From Thermotoga sp. KOL6 (GTDB lineage: Bacteria; Thermotogota; Thermotogae; Thermotogales; Thermotogaceae): 64,000 bases of DNA. Location: NCBI RefSeq assembly GCF_002866025.1, contig NZ_LNDE01000001.1:186001-250000 (forward strand), given 5' to 3'. The position numbers were made by a program, and so were the translations under genes. Of this stretch, positions 15,556 through 29,323 are shown piece after piece; positions within the stretch are counted from its first letter, which is position 1; every line of letters begins with the position of its first letter. The notes beneath the pieces are model-generated. The model did not search any database. It worked only from the letters and a program-made list of their open reading frames with translations, and had not been told where the DNA came from.

Positions 15556-15568
15556 TATCCCTGGAGGT

Positions 15569-15644
15569 TCCGGCGTAGCTCAATCGGTAGAGCGCCTGGC
15601 TGTTAACCAGGTGGTTGCAGGTTCGAGTCCTGCCGCCGTTGCCA
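15569..15644 (+). tRNA. tRNA-Asn (GTT), copy 1 with damaged acceptor stem
   Basis: 76 nt with D, anticodon (GTT) and T stems identical to copy 2 at 21764. The acceptor 5' strand is TCCGGCG, but the 3' strand reads CGCCGTT instead of CGCCGGA, so the first two pairs (1-72 and 2-71) are lost. The discriminator G and encoded CCA remain. It still has a good promoter. It may be a pseudo-tRNA produced by recombination at the tRNA 3' end, or it may still function poorly. Confidence 0.85.
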
Positions 15645-15737
15645 TAGCCATCATTTTGTACGCGGTGGAATCATATCGACCTGAGATAGTTACTAAGAGA
15701 TCTTTGAACTCCCAAGAATTTAACAAGTAACCCTGTA

Positions 15738-15866
15738 TTCAATTCAATGGTATGCTCGTCGGCGAAATTTGGGCGAGCGTAAGCGAGTCACATATCCGCC
15801 TGTTATATGACCAGAACGGAGTGAGGGCGAGGAGCGAAGCGACGAAGCGTTGCGAAGAGCGGGTAC
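15738..15866 (-). repeat. attC-like imperfect palindrome, copy 1 (degenerate)
   Basis: Follows the stop of the PH-like pseudogene. In gene sense, CATATAAC-AGGCGGATATG corresponds to the R''-L'' end of copies 2 and 3 (ACTTAAC-A-GCGGGTAT), and GCATACC near 15752 is the opposite arm. The outer arm is degraded. The internal GCGAGC/GCTCGC hairpin (15771-15787) is retained. Confidence 0.5.
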
Positions 15867-16182
15867 TCATTTTACATCTACTCCTCTATTTCTTAATTCG
15901 CGTATTGCACCATCTAAATCATCAAATACTACAAGATGATTTCTGAACATACCCTTTTTTAGAACGACTTTTAATGCTTCGGTTCTTGGAGGACATTTCC
16001 CCCATCTGATAACATCCCAAGATATTCTTCCGCCACGATATATTTCTCTGCTGATAGACTCAATATTCTTAAATTTGTAAAATTTTTACAATACCGCGGA
16101 GAAATGTAATCAAAATACCATCATCTGTTATCGTGCTTTTATATCCAAATACATAACCAATATTTGGATCCGGAAATTTCAT
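15867..16182 (-). pseudogene. Frameshifted small protein, PH-domain-like
   Basis: Three reading-frame pieces join into a roughly 105-residue protein. 'MKFPDPNIGYVFGYKS' continues to residue 34 and stops at a frameshift near 16080; 'FKNIESISREIYRGGR' continues in a second frame to about 15985; the end, 'KGMFRNHLVVFDDLDGAI', is in a third. The strand order and short beta-rich pattern suggest a bacterial PH-like domain, but I do not recognise a named family. A ribosome site AGGAGGG precedes it. Two frameshifts make it non-functional. It is flanked by attC-like copies 1 and 2. Confidence 0.6.
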
Positions 16183-16239
16183 AATTCATATCCCTCCTGT
16201 AAGTTTGAATACCGAATTATTCCGCTCTGAGCAATGTCG

Positions 16240-16314
16240 CCTAACGTTCTGGGGGTATGCGAAACCCGTAATAGTTTGGGTGAGTGACGTCGAACCGCAT
16301 ACCCGCTGTTAAGT
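16240..16314 (-). repeat. attC-like palindrome, copy 2
   Basis: 75 bp. In gene sense it runs from ACTTAAC (RYYYAAC box) to GTTAGGC (GTTRRRY box, the canonical integron core). Inside is a perfect 9-bp inverted repeat GGGTATGCG/CGCATACCC, separated by unpaired bases. It sits directly after the last gene of the Cas-like operon, with the same orientation relative to that gene as the other copies. Between the stop and the palindrome lies a GGTGC-GAA-GCACC hairpin also resembling copy 3. Confidence 0.65.
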
Positions 16315-16368
16315 GACCCCGATAGGGGCAAGGTGCGAAGCACCGCAGAGTGCCCAAGTCTGCCGATA

Positions 16369-17283
16369 TTATATATTGACTCCAACATCTACTTTACCAG
16401 CTCCTCTACTTTTTTGTCCACCTAATTCTCTTATATTATTTATTGCTGGAATTAGTACTTCTTCAATTAGAATTTTCGCTCTTTTTTTCTTATCAGTTTC
16501 TCTCCAACTTTCCAACCATTTATCAATTATCACACCATCAATCTTTCTTGCATCACCAAACTGTATTCCCTGCATTTCCAATACCGGTTCGGAGATTACA
16601 ATGCTTATATTGCCCTTAAATACTGTTCCCGGTTTTACTTGTTCACCCTCAACTTTTGCACCAGGGGCTGCAGTCTCTGTTTTTCTATCAATTCTTATAT
16701 TTGTCTGGTCTATTACACTACCCTCACTTTCAGGATAGAAATTGCTAAATCTCAAGAATCCCATTAGACCAGCAGATCCCATAAAATAACATACAGGACA
16801 GATTCCAACATTTTGATCATTTATTTTAGGAATCCATATTTTATCATTATCAACACCAATTTGGCACCCTGCAATTTCTTTGTTTCCCAATTTTGCCTTT
16901 TTTCTATATTTCCCCAAGTTAATTAACTCTTCCTCAGCCTTTGTCGGTCTCGGAGATGGAATACAGGGCTTTAGTAGATTTTTTTTATTATCAGGTATAT
17001 TAAATAGCTGTGCAAATTCATCAATTTTTTCAATAAATAGCAACTCTAACTGATGTCTCAATGCTCCTTTAAAGCTTGTTGCCGGTATTACAGGAGTTCT
17101 ATCCACTTTAAAAACAGCACCCTTTTTCTCAGTCAATGGAGATGGCGCTGCACCAATATGTAAAAAGCTATCTTCAGCAACCTCTATTTTTACTGGAAGC
17201 TCCAAGACTCTCATTTTTCCTTCTCTTTTCATTTTAAATTCCTTTTCTTCTCCACCAACTTCTATTTTCATTATCTCACTCAT
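16369..17283 (-). CDS. RAMP protein, Cas7 (Csm3/Csx7)-like
   Basis: 304 aa from ATG 17283 after GGGAGGTGAT. Family signs: 'VIPATSFKGALRHQLELLF', matching the IPGSSLKGALR block of Csm3-type Cas7 proteins; the Cys-bearing 'ICPVCYFMGSAGLMGFLRF'; and the C-terminal glycine-rich loop 'LGGQKSRGAGKVDV'. Cas7 subunits form the backbone that holds crRNA in type III effectors. The residue where Csm3 has its catalytic Asp (GVD before the IPGSS block) appears to read GAV here, so RNA cleavage may be lost; this is a by-eye alignment. Last gene of the four-gene operon, followed by attC-like copy 2. Confidence 0.82.
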   Translation of the reverse strand: MSEIMKIEVGGEEKEFKMKREGKMRVLELPVKIEVAEDSFLHIGAAPSPLTEKKGAVFKVDRTPVIPATSFKGALRHQLELLFIEKIDEFAQLFNIPDNKKNLLKPCIPSPRPTKAEEELINLGKYRKKAKLGNKEIAGCQIGVDNDKIWIPKINDQNVGICPVCYFMGSAGLMGFLRFSNFYPESEGSVIDQTNIRIDRKTETAAPGAKVEGEQVKPGTVFKGNISIVISEPVLEMQGIQFGDARKIDGVIIDKWLESWRETDKKKRAKILIEEVLIPAINNIRELGGQKSRGAGKVDVGVNI

Positions 17284-17864
17284 TCTATCACCTCCCAATA
17301 TTTTGTTAATGAATCAATTTTCCTTACGAAATATGCTATTTCTTCTGAGGAAATTCCTGCTGTATAAAGTTCTTTAACATATTCGAGGACTTTCTCCAAT
17401 GCTTTATTTCGTGGATAAGAGGTTCTTTTTATTTTATCAACAAAATAATGTTCAACGACAGAAATATCATATCTCTCAATAACTCTTCCATACTGATCCA
17501 TATTAGGCAATTTACACTCTACCACGCCATACCACTCCAGCTTTTCAAATAATTGTTTTAAAAGATGTGGTTTACTTTCAAATGCTGATTTTAACCATTT
17601 TGCTCGTTGCTTTAGCTCCTTAATTCTATCGTGACGCCATCTATTAGATCTTCCTTCTTGATTCTCTATTTCCCTAATTCTGCTGTTAATTTTCTCTATA
17701 AATTCATCCTTCCTACCTTCATTAAATAATCTCTCCAGTTCTTCCCAGCTCCTTCCTTCAAAGAGTTTTGGAATAGGTTCCCTTGTATCCCTATCATATG
17801 GACTATCAAATATTTCTCTATCATTCAACACTTTTTTAAATACTTCATCCATCTTACTCATCAT
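17280..17864 (-). CDS. Helical protein of the Cas-like operon, possible small subunit
   Basis: 194 aa, almost entirely charged helix with no recognisable domain. It lies between Cas5-like and Cas7-like genes, overlapping the former by 11 bp and the latter by a few bases, with a clear GGAGGTGA ribosome site. In type III operons this position is often taken by the helical small subunit Cas11 (Csm2/Cmr5), but those are usually nearer 120-150 aa, so the identity is inferred from context only. Confidence 0.6.
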   Translation of the reverse strand: MMSKMDEVFKKVLNDREIFDSPYDRDTREPIPKLFEGRSWEELERLFNEGRKDEFIEKINSRIREIENQEGRSNRWRHDRIKELKQRAKWLKSAFESKPHLLKQLFEKLEWYGVVECKLPNMDQYGRVIERYDISVVEHYFVDKIKRTSYPRNKALEKVLEYVKELYTAGISSEEIAYFVRKIDSLTKYWEVIE

Positions 17865-18489
17865 AGTATGTCACCTCCTCTAATAAAATCTCAGGAGCTT
17901 TTACTAAACTGCCGGGGAATAAAGCTCTTTTGTAAACACCCCCAATAGAAAACTCATCAGGTTTGAACAGATAACCATAAATTGGAGAAATCGGAGTAAT
18001 TTCAAACTCTCCAGCCTCCTCTTCAAATACTTTAACTTTTAAAATTCCTTGTTTTACCTTTGATTCTATTTTCTCTATTTGAACAATTTTCGTTTTCCCA
18101 AATCCTTTACTCTTTAAAGCACCCATCTGAAATTCAGCATTGTTTAGCTCGTTCTTAAAACCTGCAACTTTATCATAAGGAATATACACTTTTGCCTTAA
18201 TTTTTCCATTCACATCTTTTGATCTCAAATAACATGTGGTTATAGGAACTTTTGATATATTAAGAAACTTATCCCTAACAGAGTATGTAAATTCATCAAA
18301 TTCATAAGTGTCTTCTTCAAAAAATCCAACAGCAGGAACTTTAATACCAAAATAGTGTTTTAATGCTCCCTCAATAGTAGAGGAAGGAATTGTAGTCTGA
18401 CAAGGTCTAAATACGCCACCTTTGAATCTTTCACCAATGATAACAGAATCAATTTCCAGATGTAATTCAAACAATTTAATGCCATTCAT
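17854..18489 (-). CDS. RAMP protein, Cas5 (Csm4/Csx10)-like
   Basis: 211 aa. 'GGVFRPCQTTIPSSTIEGALKHYFG' has the IP-S-S-x-x-G-A block of RAMPs, and 'QMGALKSKGFGKTKIVQI' is a glycine-rich loop. The C-terminal 'TPISPIYGYLFKPDEFSIGG' resembles the end of Csm4/Cmr3-type Cas5 proteins, which cap the crRNA 5' tag and bind Cas10. ATG overlaps the Cas10-like stop (ATGA) and the next gene overlaps its end. The exact subfamily cannot be fixed without profile searches. Confidence 0.72.
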   Translation of the reverse strand: MNGIKLFELHLEIDSVIIGERFKGGVFRPCQTTIPSSTIEGALKHYFGIKVPAVGFFEEDTYEFDEFTYSVRDKFLNISKVPITTCYLRSKDVNGKIKAKVYIPYDKVAGFKNELNNAEFQMGALKSKGFGKTKIVQIEKIESKVKQGILKVKVFEEEAGEFEITPISPIYGYLFKPDEFSIGGVYKRALFPGSLVKAPEILLEEVTYYDE

Positions 18490-20594
18490 TTCTTCTCACC
18501 CCTTAGAAGCTTATAAAGACTCAAGAATTTTGATGGCTTTATTCCTTTTGAAAATAATTCATAAATTTCAGGGTATTTCTTCCTATTATTAAATATCTCA
18601 ACAGACATATGAATCTCAGATCCAATCTTTTCCTCTAATTGAGCTAGTTTATGTAAAAACGAACTTGAAGTCTCTGTATTGATAACTTTATCCATGATAA
18701 TCCTTAATTGCTCTTTTGCATACTTTTCAACAAATACTTTATGATATCTAATATTCAAGAAATTCTTATTACCTTCTTCAAAAAACCTCCAATGCTCTCT
18801 TATTGGATACTTAATATTAGCGATGCTCAGGGACAAACTTATAAGGGATTTCTCATCACTGGCACAATCTGGGAAATACTGCTCAAAGAGATTAAGGAAA
18901 TTCTCAATAACCCTTTTTGTTAATTCCGGAGAATATTTAAATACACCCAGCTCGTCATATTCAGCAATTGGTTTTTTAACATCTTCTATTCCATCAAAAT
19001 TTTCCCAGAACTTTTTCAGCATTTCTTTATAGTCTTTATTGAAATCTACCTGTAACGCAAGGGGTCTAAATTCATCTTTTAAAACATTTCCTTGCCTGAA
19101 ATTGTAACTGTCAACATACTCTCCAAACGCCTTTTGCAGCCATTTTTCTAATTTATTTTGATCCAGAGAAAACTTAAACCAGCAAACTTTGACATTCTCT
19201 TCCTCCCACACAGTTGTATACTTTCTAAATGGTTCACCTAGGTCTCTTATTTCCTGACATTTATCGCAGATCCACTCCCTTATGGTTTCTTTTATTCGTT
19301 CTACTCCTCTCCTCTGCTGGCATATATCGCAAATAGGTGGATGTATTTCATCTGGAAGTTCGGGCATAAGATATTTTTTGTACACTTTGGTGCTTCTATT
19401 GTTTAGAACATTAAGTCGCTTCTCAAAATCTTCTTTTGGCTTTTTCTTACATTCCTCCCATTCTTCATGTTCTTCAACACATTTTCTTGCTTGCAGGGTT
19501 TTTTTATCCAATATTGAGCTCAATATTCCTAAATCAGTAAAAGTTTCCTCTACTTCTATGTAAAAACCCCAGTCCAGAAGTGGTTTGAGAATATTATTTA
19601 AGTCTTGATTTAATGGAAGAAACAAAGTGATAAAATCTGAAGTTGAAAATATAACCTCATCCTTATATTTGTTTGAAACAGAATTTATTAATTCTTCTCT
19701 TTTTCTGAGCAAGTTTATATCCTGTAATCTCACAAATGAGTGTGGAAACTTTATCCAGCATTTTACTATCCTTGCCTGCCATTTACCTTTATCAACATCT
19801 ATGTTTCCAGTGGTTCTCTTACCACCCTCAGCCTCCTTTATTTTCTTTACCTTATCGCCGGAATACTCAATAGAAATAGAACCGTCTGCTTCCTTTACTA
19901 ATCTTGTATTTTTCTTTAATACTCTAAAAATTTTACCCACAAGTTCAACATGTGTATAAAGTGATGTAACATTTCTTGGAATTGATTTGTCTTCAGGAGT
20001 AAGCAAAAGGTTTTCTTTGTATTTGTTTAAAAATGCCTCTCCAGATTGACAATTTTCAATTTCATCAAAAAGAGTCCTCAAATCATCTGTTGTTTTAAAC
20101 GCAGCCCAATATTTTCCTTTTTGCTCCTCTCGTTGATAGAAATTTTTATTCCATAGCTTTAAGACTCCATCTTGAGGTGCCTGTTTTCTTTCAAGTTCTA
20201 AAGTTGCTCTTGAAACAGAAGATGCCAAATGATCTGCAAGTACGAGCAAAAATAGGTTGTATTTGTCTTCTTCTGAAGGAGTGTTTCCTAAAGTATCTTG
20301 CAAATTCCAATTGTTAATGTCTATTTCATTAATGCTTATGTGTACCCCCTGTTTTTGTTTTCTACGATCACAATCTACCCATTGGTTGGCACGATTATCA
20401 TAACAAATATGGTGATATTGCCCCCACCAGGATGGAGACGTTGGTTGTGTAATTCCAAGATTTTGAAAATTAAAGTTAATGAATACATGACCTCTCCATG
20501 AATTTCCAAATTGATTTTGTAATCTATCTTTTACTTGATCATCAACCAATTTTCCAATATCGTGCAACTCGGGAATGAACTTTTTATCTACCAT
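18486..20594 (-). CDS. Cas10-like large subunit with HD motif, no GGDD (Csx11-like)
   Basis: 702 aa. An N-terminal 'PELHDIGKLVD' (H11, D12) is the HD nuclease motif; 'HHICYDN' follows. A zinc ribbon at about 418-446 has two C-X2-C pairs ('ICDICQQ' and 'WICDKCQE'). The palm-like stretch 'SLSLSIANIKYPI' at about 590 resembles the second palm domain of Cas10/Csx11 proteins. No GGDD cyclase motif is visible anywhere, so cyclic oligoadenylate synthesis is unlikely. ATG 20594 follows TGGAGGTAA. First gene of the operon. Csx11 is the closest family I recall. Confidence 0.75.
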   Translation of the reverse strand: MVDKKFIPELHDIGKLVDDQVKDRLQNQFGNSWRGHVFINFNFQNLGITQPTSPSWWGQYHHICYDNRANQWVDCDRRKQKQGVHISINEIDINNWNLQDTLGNTPSEEDKYNLFLLVLADHLASSVSRATLELERKQAPQDGVLKLWNKNFYQREEQKGKYWAAFKTTDDLRTLFDEIENCQSGEAFLNKYKENLLLTPEDKSIPRNVTSLYTHVELVGKIFRVLKKNTRLVKEADGSISIEYSGDKVKKIKEAEGGKRTTGNIDVDKGKWQARIVKCWIKFPHSFVRLQDINLLRKREELINSVSNKYKDEVIFSTSDFITLFLPLNQDLNNILKPLLDWGFYIEVEETFTDLGILSSILDKKTLQARKCVEEHEEWEECKKKPKEDFEKRLNVLNNRSTKVYKKYLMPELPDEIHPPICDICQQRRGVERIKETIREWICDKCQEIRDLGEPFRKYTTVWEEENVKVCWFKFSLDQNKLEKWLQKAFGEYVDSYNFRQGNVLKDEFRPLALQVDFNKDYKEMLKKFWENFDGIEDVKKPIAEYDELGVFKYSPELTKRVIENFLNLFEQYFPDCASDEKSLISLSLSIANIKYPIREHWRFFEEGNKNFLNIRYHKVFVEKYAKEQLRIIMDKVINTETSSSFLHKLAQLEEKIGSEIHMSVEIFNNRKKYPEIYELFSKGIKPSKFLSLYKLLRGEKK

Positions 20595-20630
20595 TATTTA
20601 TTACCTCCATAAAGGCGGGCTTGGGCATTT

Positions 20631-20717
20631 CACTTAACGGTTTGGGGATATGTGAAGTCGCCGAAGGCGATTTGGGTGAGGGCTGAAAACCCGAACCAGA
20701 TACCCGCTTGTTAAGTG
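20631..20717 (-). repeat. attC-like palindrome, copy 3
   Basis: 87 bp bounded by perfect outer arms CACTTAAC (20631-20638) and GTTAAGTG (20710-20717), which fit RYYYAAC and GTTRRRY. Inner arms GGGGATATG and ATACCCGC pair imperfectly, and a GTCGCCGAAGGCGA hairpin lies in the centre. It lies between the IS3 remnant (whose stop is 55 bp away in gene sense) and the Cas10-like gene, so the Cas-like operon is bracketed by two such sites. Confidence 0.68.
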
Positions 20718-20771
20718 AGGGCGTAAGCCCCCAGCAACCCGAAAGGTTGCGAGAGTGCCTGCCGTCGCCAG

Positions 20772-21175
20772 TCATTTTAGGATCCTTCTTATAAGTTCCA
20801 ACATTTTGTGACCAACTCCATAATAAATCTCATCAGGCATACAATATCCAAACGACTGATGTAACTTTTTTTGTTGTAATATCCTATCTAGTCCTTACTC
20901 ACCTCTCTTACATCTCTCGGTGTCGCAATCTCCTTCAAATACAGACATTCGTACTTGTACGTCCTTCGAAACCTCTCCATATATATGTTGTCTTTGTATC
21001 CTTTATTACCGTAACTCGCCTTTGAAAGTACTTTTACCATTCTCGTCCATAAATGCTCATAAATACTCTAAAAAATCCCTACTTAAAAATTGTTCCCCTA
21101 TCATCTTTTCTTCTTTGATAGCTTCAATTTAGGTCTTTGTTTTAAATTCCGGTGAGTAGTTCTTCTTCTACCCAT
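20772..21175 (-). mobile_element. IS3-family insertion sequence remnant
   Basis: Two decayed pieces. From ATG 21175, 'MGRRR' then, after a frameshift, 'YSPEFKTK' and 'IEAIKEEKMIGEQF' match the start of an IS3 OrfA helix-turn-helix protein. After a large deletion, 'MERFRRTYKYECLYLKEIATP', an in-frame stop and 'LHQSFGYCMPDEIYYG' match the last part of the OrfB DDE transposase, including the final catalytic Glu region. A whole IS3 is about 1.2-1.5 kb; only about 400 bp remain. No terminal repeats could be identified. Confidence 0.75.
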
Positions 21176-21408
21176 ATGGCCCCCTTATTCACTTGGTATT
21201 TTAACTTATACCCCGGTACAACTTCCGAGGTTCACCTCAAATTGTATCACCATTTCCCCAATTTTATTGCACCTGAAGCTTAAACATCAAACATACAGAT
21301 TCTAACTTTGAGTGTGTGTAAAATAAATGGATAGGAGTGTCAAGAGTGGAAGTTAAGAAGCTACTTGAACTTTCCAACTTTCTGTCATTTCGAGTCTTTC
21401 CCACCTAT
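21176..21408. other. Intergenic stretch with no supported gene
   Basis: Between the IS3 remnant and the palindromic repeat. I see no open reading frame with a ribosome site and no RNA gene. The left part may hold remains of the IS end. Confidence 0.5.
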
Positions 21409-21632
21409 GTCATTTCGAGCGAATGTGAGAAATCTGGTATTGGCGTGTGGCTGGTAGCTTGTGTCACGTAGAAGTGTGGCAGGTAGCGGGTAGAATAAGA
21501 TTTCTCCTCGCTAACGTTCGTCGAAATGACAGAAGAAGGGAGTGCTTGTTGAAATGACAGGAGAGGGGAAAAACTCGAAATGACGAAGGAGAGACCTCGA
21601 AATGGCAGAGGGGAAGGGCTCATCGAAATGAT
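21409..21632. repeat. MITE-like palindromic repeat with tandem arms
   Basis: Arm GTCATTTCGAGC...AGAAATCT (21409-21435) is inverted as AGATTTCTC...TCGAAATGAC (21498-21530). The arm core TCGAAATGAC or its variants recurs at about 21374, 21548, 21571, 21594 and 21618. The centre contains repeated GGTAGC(G) units. Such multi-copy palindromes of the GTCATTTCGAG type are common non-coding mobile repeats. No coding content is evident. Confidence 0.65.
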
Positions 21633-21706
21633 GGGAGAAAGGACGCGGAATGGAAGAAACTAAGGTATCATCCATTTTCTTGACAGAGACCGAGGGGCGA
21701 AAGTAG

Positions 21707-21735
21707 TTGACATGTTCTACACCTTGTGCTAAAAT
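21707..21735 (+). promoter_or_regulatory. Promoter of tRNA-Asn copy 2
   Basis: TTGACA (21707-21712), 17-bp spacer, TAAAAT (21730-21735), 28 bp before the tRNA. It is unrelated in sequence to the copy 1 promoter, so the duplication does not include the promoter region. Confidence 0.8.
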
Positions 21736-21763
21736 ACAATTCGAAAGGTGGGGATTTAGAGGT

Positions 21764-21839
21764 TCCGGCGTAGCTCAATCGGTAGAGCGCCTGGCTGTTA
21801 ACCAGGTGGTTGCAGGTTCGAGTCCTGCCGCCGGAGCCA
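21764..21839 (+). tRNA. tRNA-Asn (GTT), copy 2, intact
   Basis: 76 nt including encoded CCA. The acceptor stem TCCGGCG/CGCCGGA pairs fully; D stem, anticodon stem with GTT and T stem GCAGG/CCTGC are regular. It is followed at once by a T-rich tract that can serve as a terminator and is part of a direct repeat. Confidence 0.97.
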
Positions 21840-21857
21840 TTTTCTTTTTTTATAGGC
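21840..21857 (+). repeat. 18-bp direct repeat after tRNA-Asn, left copy
   Basis: TTTTCTTTTTTTATAGGC is identical to 24301-24318, and both are soon followed by CCGTTTC. The two copies bound a 2.4-kb block of decayed genes. It could be an attachment-site-like duplication, though the T-run lowers its specificity. Confidence 0.45.
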
Positions 21858-24098: not shown

Positions 24099-24430
24099 GG
24101 GGAATCACTGGTATAAGTTTGTATCGAAGCTTAAAAAGCTTTTCAAAACGAAGAGGTTTCGTGAGAATTTTTCTTAACCTGAAAAGGATCCTGAATGATA
24201 AGGTAGATGCTGAATTTCTTGAGGGCGCCCCTTGCTCTTTATCATTTCTATTTCCGGTTCGTCCCTGAAGGTTCGCAAAGTTTCATACGAGTGAAATCAT
24301 TTTCTTTTTTTATAGGCCGTTTCGAGGTCATTAAAAGAATCTTTCTGAGTTATCTACTTTAAAGAAATGCCCCTAATCTGTCCCTGTTTGTAACAATTCA
24401 ATATAAACGAGCTGATTTTGATCATTGTTT
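24099..24430. other. Gene-free stretch with unidentified coding remnants
   Basis: No intact gene. Plus-strand fragments such as 'HWYKFVSKLKKLFKTKRF' (24098-24160) and 'ALYHFYFRFVPEGSQSF' (24234-24290) look like pieces of a lost protein, perhaps a transposase, in different frames. The right copy of the direct repeat lies at 24301-24318. Confidence 0.35.
24301..24318 (+). repeat. 18-bp direct repeat, right copy
   Basis: TTTTCTTTTTTTATAGGC, identical to the tract right after tRNA-Asn copy 2, and followed by CGTTTC in both places. See the left copy at 21840. Confidence 0.45.
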
Positions 24431-25280: not shown

Positions 25281-26174
25281 TCATTCTTCCGTGAAATAAT
25301 CCAAGTCTATTTTTTTAATTTCATACGTTGCTACAGTGGAAACCCCCACGTTATATTCGATCATCAAATCGGCCAGTTTTTCACCATCTATGAGTATAAT
25401 TTTGCTATCTATTTTGGAAACATACTCGATTGCAGACTTTGAAAAACTTGACGTCGTTATGAATACGCCTTTTTTCGCCCTTTGACCATGTAATGCCCCC
25501 ACGAATTTCTGGATTTCCGGCCGGCCCACCGGATTGTTCCAACGTTTTGCTTGTATATAAATAATGTCTAATCCTAGCCTGTCTTCTTTTATAATTCCAT
25601 CGATTCCTTCGTCACCCGTCCTTCCAATTGCCTTTCCTGCCTCTTCTCTCGAACCTCCATAACCCATCTTGACCAAAAGATCCACAACTAATTTTTCAAA
25701 AAAGCTTGGAGAACAGGACATTACTTTATCTAATAACTGTGCCACCAGCTCTTTACGCAATCTCTGATAACCTATGGCAATCAACTCTTCGGGAGTATTT
25801 TTGCTTGAATTTGATTCTTCCTTTGAAATTCCTCCCTTTTTTCTAAATTCAATAAATTCTGGAAATCTCAATAAATATTTGACATCAATCTTCTCAGGAG
25901 GATTTTTCAAAACCTCCAAACCTCTTTCTGTGATTTTGAAATAACCACGCCTAGTGGTGCAAAGCAATCCAGCCTTAGTTAAATATACCTTTGCCCATCC
26001 TACTCTACTTTCAAAGATAGTTTGTTGCCCACTGGGCAACATTATCTTTCTTTCCTCTTCAGTTAAACCGAATTTCCCCGCAAGATAATCTATTGCCTCT
26101 CTTCTACTGTGCTCTTTACCATCACTCGCAAACTCCAACAAAGGTAGCATTATAGTTTGGTAATCGGGAATCAT
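25281..26174 (-). CDS. mrr: Mrr-family restriction endonuclease
   Basis: 297 aa. An N-terminal Mrr_N winged-helix domain (about 1-95) is joined to a C-terminal Mrr catalytic domain (about 150-290). The PD-(D/E)XK core is visible: 'GRTGDEGIDGIIKED', then 'IIYIQAKRW' (Q-A-K variant), followed by 'KFVGALHGQRAKKGVFITTSSFS'. Mrr enzymes cut modified or foreign DNA without a partner methyltransferase (type IV). Intact. Start ATG 26174. No cognate modification gene is visible. Confidence 0.9.
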   Translation of the reverse strand: MIPDYQTIMLPLLEFASDGKEHSRREAIDYLAGKFGLTEEERKIMLPSGQQTIFESRVGWAKVYLTKAGLLCTTRRGYFKITERGLEVLKNPPEKIDVKYLLRFPEFIEFRKKGGISKEESNSSKNTPEELIAIGYQRLRKELVAQLLDKVMSCSPSFFEKLVVDLLVKMGYGGSREEAGKAIGRTGDEGIDGIIKEDRLGLDIIYIQAKRWNNPVGRPEIQKFVGALHGQRAKKGVFITTSSFSKSAIEYVSKIDSKIILIDGEKLADLMIEYNVGVSTVATYEIKKIDLDYFTEE

Positions 26175-26323: not shown

Positions 26324-27510
26324 ATGAATAGCAAACGAAATCAGTCAGAAAGAGAAGCTTTAGAAAAATTCATCTCTGACAATCCCGAACTAGAATTGTT
26401 AGAAGAAATCATCGACAGATTCAATATCTTTGCAGCGTTGAATATAGTAAATTATGAAATAAGATATTCTGCTTTCCTATCGTGGTTACTGAATCCCCAA
26501 GAGAATCATGGCCTAAGAGATTATTTTTTAAAAATTTTCCTTAAAAAGTTGATCTTAAAAGCTTCTATATTGGGGATGGAGAGAGTTTCGGTTTTTGACA
26601 TAGACAGCTGGGATTTGGACGATACAGAAGTACTACGAGAGTGGCGAAACATTGACATATTAATAAAACACGATGAACGAAAGTTCGTGTGTGTAATAGA
26701 AAACAAAATGTACTCAAAAGATATAAAAGGATTATCAACAGCGAGTATTCATCGTATAGAAAAATGTTTGTTTATTTAACTATTGAAGGGAACATTCCAT
26801 CCGATAGCGACTACATTCCTATGAGTTACAACGAAATAATCTCGCTAATAGAAGATCTCATAGAAAGAAAAGAAGAAAAGATCGGCCCAGAAATATTGAT
26901 CTTTATAAAGCATTACAGAGATATGTTAAGGAGGTATATTGTGAGAGAATCTGAAATTCAAGAATTGTGTAGGAAAATTTACCAGAAGCACAAAAAGGCA
27001 CTGGACTTAATCTTTGAATACAAATTGGATGATCTATTAGAAATATCAAGAATCCTGACTGAGATGATCGAGAAAGATGAAAATCTGATTCTAGATTCAT
27101 CGAGCAAGTCCTATATAAGGTTTATCTCAAAGAATCTAGATTTTATTCCAAAAAAAGGTGAAGGATGGACAAAATCAGGAAGGATTTTGTTGTTTGAATT
27201 CCAGAATTTCAAGGCAAGATTGTCATTGAACTTGATCATCGGTCCCGGTCCAAGAGAAATCAGAGAAAAACTCTACGACAAAGCATGCGAAAAACCACAG
27301 TTGTTTAACGGGATCGCCAAAAGAAAACTAACCTCTCAATGGTTTACTGTCTACTCCTGTTTATTCTTAAGAAACTACGAAGATAAAAATCTTGAAGAAA
27401 TAAAAAAGATCATCGAGGAAAAATTCGAAAAATTCAAGAAAAACGATCTTCCCCGCATTGAAAAAGAAATAAAGGTGTTGGAAGTAGAATTTCAAGATGA
27501 ATCTCCATAA
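26324..27510 (+). pseudogene. PD-(D/E)XK nuclease-family protein, frameshifted
   Basis: Codons from 26324 ('MNSKRNQSEREALEKFISDN') carry the family's 'YEIRYSAFLSWLLNP' and the catalytic 'WRNIDILIKHD' plus 'CVIENKM' (D...E-x-K). Just after the active site the frame is lost near 26730 and stops at 26779. The rest continues in the +1 frame ('EYSSYRKMFVYLTIEGN' onward) to 27510. Unbroken it would be about 390 aa, like PDDEXK_4 proteins of defence islands. Probably a neighbour partner of the DUF262 gene that follows. Confidence 0.75.
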
Positions 27511-27583
27511 AATTACAAACAGAAATGTCCAATGAGAACAACACAATTTGATACTTTATTTAATTTAGTCAAGAAGTGATAAC

Positions 27584-29323
27584 ATGCACGGATTACCGTT
27601 TGAATCAAGAAATATCAAAATCTCAGGATTAGTAGATGATATCAGAAAGGGAATAATTGCTCTTCCCGACCTTCAAAGACCTTTTGTTTAGGATGCAAAA
27701 AAGGTTAGAGATCTTTTTGATTCTCCCTACAACGGGCTTCCCATAGGCACCATTATTCTATGGAAAGTTAGGGATGCAGAAAGTTTCAAAAAGATCAATT
27801 TAGAAGAGAACACAGTACCGGAATACTTGGTTATAGATGGACAACAAAGGTTAACATCGCTCTATTCAGTGATATACAACAAGCCTGTTTTGACGAAGAA
27901 TTTTAAAGAAAAACCGCTGAATATCTCGTTCAATCCCATAATGGAAAAATTTGAAGTTACAAACGCAGCTATAGAAAAGGATCCAAGATGGATAAAAAAC
28001 ATAAGTGAGATACTACTACCTGAAAATTCAACTTACAAGGTGATCCAGAAATATCTGAGAGATCTTAAATCAAAATTGAGTGACGAAAGATACGATGAGG
28101 AAATCATAGCATCAAGAATAGAAAAATTGAGAAGAATTCTATCATATCCTCTCAATGTTATAGAACTTTCTCATACCCTAGATCCCGAAACCGTTGCAGA
28201 GATATTTGTAAGAATTAACAGCACAGGGAAATCTCTCAACCAGAGCGATTTCATTCTGACTCTTCTTTCCTTATACTGGAATGAAGGGAGGAAAGAGCTC
28301 GAAAAATTCTGTGAATCGTCAAGGATGTTCCCAGAAGATAACACAAGCTCTTCATACAACATAATAGGCATTAAGCCAGACCCTGAGTACCTGGTGAGAG
28401 CAACTGTGGGATATTCCTTTAGAAAGGGAAGACTGAGATACGCATATTTAATACTGAAGGGAAGAGATTTTGAAAATAAAACGATCTCTGAAAATTTGAG
28501 AGTTAAGAATATAAACCTCTACAAAGAAGGTCATCAAAAAGTTGTGAATCTAACGAATTGGCATGACTTTGTAAAAATAATTTACAGTTCTGGATTTGTC
28601 AACGATCGGCTGATAAATTCCAAAATAGCATTTTTTGTTTCCTACACCCTTTACCTTATCGGAAGATACGATTTCACAATTCATCACAAGGAGTTGGAAT
28701 CAATAATAAGAAAATGGTTCGTCTTTTCTGTTCTGACGCAAAGGTATAATACATCAACCGAAACCTTAATAGAACAAGATTTTTCATCTCTGAAGAGTGA
28801 TTTTATAGGAGATCTCAAGAAAATAATGGATGCAGAACTAACTCAAGATTTTTGGGGAATTACTCTTCCAGAAAGGCTCAATTCCTCCTCGATAGAGAAT
28901 CCTGCGTTCAGGGTTTATACAGCAGCTCTTGTTTACAATGATGAGAACGTATTCTTGTCCGACATAAAATTGAGAGATTACTTAAGCCCTGCGGTTAAAA
29001 ACGTTAGGAAAAAGATGATAGATCTTCATCATATATTCCCAAAAGCCTATCTGAAAAGAATAGGTTACAAAGAAAATAAGTTGATAAATCAAGTGGCCAA
29101 TCTTGTTTATATAGAATACAAAGACAACTTAGAAATAAGCGACAAGCCACCCTATGAATATTGGAAAGAAATAACAAAATTTTATCCTGAAGATAAGATC
29201 GAAAATCACATAAGATCTCACGATATACCCAATGGGTTTTGGGGAATGACCTATGAAGAATTCCTTGCTGAAAGGCGAAAGATGATGGCTGCAAGAATAA
29301 GAAAATACTTCACCAAACTTTGA
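27584..29323 (+). pseudogene. DUF262/DUF1524 (GmrSD-type) gene with an amber codon
   Basis: From ATG 27584 the frame reads 'LPDLQRPFV' then TAG at 27689, then 'DAKKVRDLFDS'. The usual family residue here is Trp (RPFVW), so TGG has become TAG. All else is intact: 'VIDGQQRLTSLYS' is the DGQQR nucleotide-binding/hydrolysis motif of DUF262 (ParB-like), and the C-terminal 'DLHHIFPKAYLKRIG' is an HNH nuclease motif. Full length 579 aa. GmrSD proteins restrict glucosylated phage DNA. An internal start near 27827 would lack the N-terminal motif. Confidence 0.8.

Follow-up and report, generated by a model that had tools for sequence, protein, structure and literature searches.

Two adjacent, interrupted defence nuclease genes of the PDDEXK_4 and DUF262 families in a Thermotoga genome, probably acquired and lost separately

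Two genes for restriction-type nucleases, one of the PD-(D/E)XK type and one with a DUF262 domain, follow each other in Thermotoga sp. KOL6, and the reading frames of both are interrupted. This leads to the question whether they formed a two-component defence system that was silenced as a whole, as had been proposed in a reading made from the sequence alone, or whether each was gained and lost on its own. The locus was analysed within a stretch of 64,000 nucleotides, here called the window, which belongs to contig C1 of a draft genome (1.71 Mb, six contigs). The second answer is very probably correct: the genes appear to be two independently acquired solo defence nucleases that became neighbours within a defence island in a single Thermotoga genome, where both were recently pseudogenised. 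Their families are known, and the locus looks more like ordinary wear in a defence island than like a silenced two-part system. The features are listed in Table 1.

Table 1. Features of the locus, in positions of the window
Feature	Position	Strand	Evidence
Mrr-type restriction enzyme, intact (Mrr_N and Mrr_cat, PADLOC mREase_IV), divergent neighbour upstream of PDDEXK_4	25281..26174	-	
PDDEXK_4 gene (PF14281; PADLOC candidate family PDC-S26), whole, in two frames	26324-27510	+	
PDDEXK_4 N-terminal part, frame 1, ends with the ENK active-site motif	26324..26710	+	Pfam and PADLOC
PDDEXK_4 lesion, 22 nt short (net) of the fixed spacing ENK-8 residues-QL	26708..26713	+	
PDDEXK_4 C-terminal part, shifted frame, open to the natural stop	26713..27510	+	ORFs and PADLOC
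DUF262 (GmrSD_N, PF03235) gene with HNH-like C terminus (HHIFP...NQVAN), PADLOC HEC-05-like; 579 codons, one internal stop	27584..29323	+	
In-frame amber TAG, codon 36 of the DUF262 gene, Trp in 9/9 aligned relatives	27689..27691	+	Alignment

The first frame of the upstream gene matches PF14281 with an E-value of 9.7e-21 (Pfam), and the PADLOC profile PDLC04977 (PDC-S26) covers both pieces in register, at profile positions 5-129 and 129-394 of 400 with E-values of 4.2e-45 and 5.3e-78. The profile match extends over the length of the protein, across two frames; E-x-K and QL at a fixed spacing in one open frame are not found. Frame 1 comprises 151 codons and past position 26710 runs out of register to 26779, and the second frame, which starts with GTG, overlaps it. 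In 17 of 18 homologues the gap between ENK and QL is exactly eight residues, with K and L 27 nt apart; the remaining homologue (L037) lay outside the search pattern used. In the window the stretch between the end of ENK and the corresponding Leu codon is only 5 nt long, giving the net loss of 22 nt. The active-site motif (IENK) is kept, and the Q of the conserved QL is lost together with the reading frame. The loss may have been a single event or several. Judged by its sequence, the gene is a pseudogene of PDC-S26/PDDEXK_4 and no working member of that family.

The downstream gene matches PF03235 over positions 1-197 (E-value 4.6e-33, over the cut-off), with the TAG codon, its sole internal stop, inside the match. 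The frame is otherwise open over its whole length, and the motifs VRDLFDS, DGQQR, HHIFP and NQVAN are present in it. A DUF262 domain with DGQQR is found, the latter invariant across a 10-row alignment of the window gene and nine relatives, but in a frame interrupted at residue 36. The C-terminal open reading frame gave no Pfam HNH or DUF1524 match at an E-value of 0.001, and HHIFP...NQVAN aligns with Thermotoga and plasmid relatives. Because no Pfam C-terminal nuclease domain passed, the label HNH is a motif reading combined with an alignment.

The sequence-only reading was borne out in its family assignments, in a PD-(D/E)XK frame lost just past the active site (the break follows directly after IENK), in the Trp to TAG exchange and in an intact Mrr neighbour. 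Its description of both genes as restriction-type defence genes, inactivated recently, likewise holds. It had called both lesions minimal; the PDDEXK_4 lesion is no minimal slip. The rest of the DUF262 gene had been considered intact, and this stands for the open frame, DGQQR and HHIFP, whereas an HNH domain was not confirmed by Pfam. As for the products, the PDDEXK_4 protein would be truncated without the QL motif and the entire C terminus, and the DUF262 protein would end after residue 35. Neither should work, because each is cut short at, or ahead of, parts that it needs.

Could both genes nevertheless be expressed, through a programmed frameshift and a read-through of the stop that join the frames by recoding? 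Frameshifting was considered because the PDDEXK_4 genes of two other loci (L013 and L014) are also split, and it would fit the overlap of the two frames in the window. It was ruled out by the differing break sites, those of L013 and L014 lying approximately 30 residues further on, after FLSP, and by the sequence missing from the window. Since the 22 nt and the conserved Q are gone, a ribosomal frameshift could not yield a normal PDDEXK_4 protein, and 17 of the 18 homologues reach QL in a single frame. In addition, no CTA, TTA or TCA anticodon was detected by ARAGORN among the 47 tRNA genes of the genome (44 anticodon types), so suppression of the amber codon by a tRNA of any known type is unlikely. 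Taken as a whole, recoding is extremely improbable. Reactivation by amber suppression or reversion, which had been envisaged, is unlikely as proposed: a single-base reversion would be insufficient for PDDEXK_4, where lost sequence must come back.

An error of assembly or sequencing in genes that are really intact is conceivable in a draft genome, the more so as the amber codon is one base away from a Trp codon. Against this, a 22-nt loss that takes a conserved motif is atypical of read error, and the long genes near the broken pair have open frames, which makes such an error very unlikely.

Broken copies of PDDEXK_4 or DUF262 are not unusual. A frameshift disrupts PDDEXK_4 in Rossellomorea (L013) and on one Leptospira noguchii plasmid (L014 4998-6352); another L. 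noguchii plasmid (L011) has an intact copy, and both states thus occur naturally in this one species. Only fragments are present in Natribacillus (L025) and Fredinandcohnia (L026), and two-piece matches occur in 5 of 25 plasmid records, in two of which the cause was looked at. The age of the losses in the window was approximated with a neutral model in which a stop arises from 3.5% (DUF262) or about 4% (PDDEXK_4) of random substitutions and indels amount to an assumed 5-20% of substitutions. Upper bounds for the divergence since loss were about 1.2-3.2% for DUF262 and 1.7-4.4% for PDDEXK_4, crude values that depend on the assumed indel share. On this crude neutral scale the losses are recent, because each gene carries one disabling event in an otherwise open frame.

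Several features of the locus would agree with a genuine two-component restriction system, in which a PDDEXK_4 nuclease and a DUF262 NTPase/HNH nuclease were silenced as a unit because of their cost. The DUF262 gene begins 73 nt 3' of the PDDEXK_4 gene on the same strand, an operon-like arrangement, and the G+C content is similarly low in both (0.334 for PDDEXK_4 and 0.354 for DUF262, compared with 0.403 for the window). Moreover, two broken neighbours beside an intact, divergent Mrr gene can be read as the joint silencing of a unit, which together with the arrangement speaks against two solo pseudogenes. The low G+C of both genes also fits gene acquisition. Nonetheless, the distribution of the two families renders a two-component system highly improbable. 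PF14281 matches a single genome of 103 from Thermotogota, the window's own. DUF262 relatives occur in 6 of the 14 genomes of the family, and five genomes with such relatives (G005, G006, G008, G010 and G011) have no PF14281 match genome-wide. Two of these, G005 and G006 of the same genus, keep an intact, open DUF262 gene. The gene of G008, likewise of this genus, is 92.8% identical to the G006 copy and has a 1-nt deletion, the G010 gene is represented by an N-terminal part at a contig end, and G011 carries a remote relative with 29% identity. In G005 and G006 the neighbour of the DUF262 gene is a convergent gene for a protein of 428 aa (L003 181-1467; L004 3277-4563), DUF3883-like by eye, of which at least a part is found in G008 as well.

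Outside this genome the two genes were not found as neighbours. Within the flanks examined, which are short (1.5-6 kb) at some loci, DUF262 lay beside PDDEXK_4 at none of 20 other PDDEXK_4 loci, and PDDEXK_4 beside DUF262 at none of 18 other DUF262 loci; these modest counts include none of the intact adjacent pairs that had been sought. The 20 loci (L011-L015; L019-L026; G171, G186, G189, G200, G409, G467 and G505) come from plasmids and genomes outside Thermotogota, and the eight strongest of 19 matching genomes entered the count (G103 as L019), with the 11 weaker left out. The two counts are not independent, because 8 of the 18 DUF262 loci (L027-L030, L032, L058-L060) were from genomes or records picked for carrying PDDEXK_4. 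Blast queries missed the DUF262 domain in four loci where the Pfam model saw it (L027, L030, L032 and L060), and for this reason more weight falls on the Pfam whole-genome searches when the question is approached from PDDEXK_4. They placed both families on the same contig in 4 of 25 genomes or records, at distances of 17 kb (strong copy) and 11 kb (weaker copy) in G103, 19 kb in G467, 20 kb in G104 and 33 kb in W03. Although this co-occurrence in the same islands could be taken to favour a two-component system, distances of 11-33 kb fit defence-island clustering and do not fit an operon. A scan of genome contigs with two peptide patterns returned 8 loci, a search that rare adjacent pairs could escape. 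Viral contigs contained no PDDEXK_4 relative and the phage collection one partial relative; two DUF262 relatives on viral contigs had no PDDEXK_4 in the flanks examined. PADLOC, too, assigns the two proteins to separate candidate families, PDC-S26 and HEC-05. In the papers searched there was no mention of "PDC-S26", nor of "PDDEXK_4" together with "defense". Thus, the PDDEXK_4 and DUF262 families share islands, not an operon.

Several DUF262 loci adjoin DNA methyltransferase genes. In Meiothermus taiwanensis (L016 4965-6764) the DUF262 gene has a class I DNA methyltransferase immediately on one side and a restriction specificity subunit immediately on the other, an arrangement which suggests that DUF262 can fill the nuclease role in a type I-like unit. 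In Priestia it is close to a type ISP enzyme, and on two viral contigs it is near genes that by eye are putative methyltransferases.

The surroundings of the pair in the window were also inspected. The Mrr gene is full length (PDLC03657, E-value 1.4e-93, PADLOC), and this neighbour is absent from six other genomes of the genus. In four 20-kb stretches around CorA in sister genomes nothing but CorA itself matched, and an empty site is therefore not definable. Further upstream, at 15564-21840, a type III-F CRISPR effector module with Cas7f, Cas11f, Cas5f and Cas10 (16369-20594) lies between two tRNA-Asn copies, which share an 82-bp direct repeat (98%) and score 65.2 (first) and 76.1 bits (second). 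No Cas10 was found in the six other genomes of the genus, and no repeat array was detected at 15-30 kb of the window. This region has the appearance of an island integrated at a tRNA gene. Two exact copies of a 20-bp direct repeat are found 2.46 kb apart: one starts at the 3' terminus of the second tRNA-Asn (21838-21857), and the other is downstream (24298-24317). It is very unlikely that the nucleases are a population-polymorphic pair, intact in some strains of this species and jointly off in others, of which a recent joint switch-off was caught here in an island that also gained the type III-F module.

For two solo nucleases, the most likely cause of the loss is that selection on defence genes was relaxed or fluctuated; a silencing driven by cost is possible. 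If intact, the PDDEXK_4 protein would presumably be a lone effector that cleaves foreign DNA, and the DUF262/HNH protein may, by analogy, perform nucleotide-dependent (type IV-like) restriction of the GmrSD/BrxU type. The locus then represents a clear case of gain and loss of solo defence nucleases in hyperthermophiles, and one candidate two-gene defence system is dropped from consideration. Better test material than the broken pair is offered by the DUF262 genes of G005 and G006 and by PDC-S26 of Salinicoccus and Halobacillus.

Among known systems, the DUF262 gene is closest to the BrxU/GmrSD-type enzymes (PDB 7P9K, 7P9M; PF03235), with which it shares the N-terminal DUF262 domain, RDLFDS-like and DGQQR motifs and a nuclease-like C terminus with HH-x-FP. 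Passages of two earlier papers describe the motifs RLFDS, DGQQR and DHIYP for the BrxU family (PMC8565348) and a nearly 100% conservation of DGQQR in GmrS (PMC4619093). In a phmmer search against the Protein Data Bank, BrxU was the sole relative at E-values up to 0.1 (7p9k_A, residues 13-65, E-value 5.8e-8). The window gene differs from these enzymes by its early end and by the lack of a Pfam match for the C-terminal nuclease. Among the PADLOC models HEC-05, a candidate defence family defined computationally, matches the read-through protein best (E-value 4.3e-35, residues 9-245), with the best stretch limited to the N-terminal half. The PDDEXK_4 gene resembles PDC-S26/PF14281 in that both halves match PDLC04977 in register and ENK is kept, and departs from it by the net 22-nt loss, with which the Q of QL and the frame are gone. 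The divergent neighbour, intact over its full length, corresponds to the Mrr type IV methyl-directed restriction enzymes and stands outside the broken pair.
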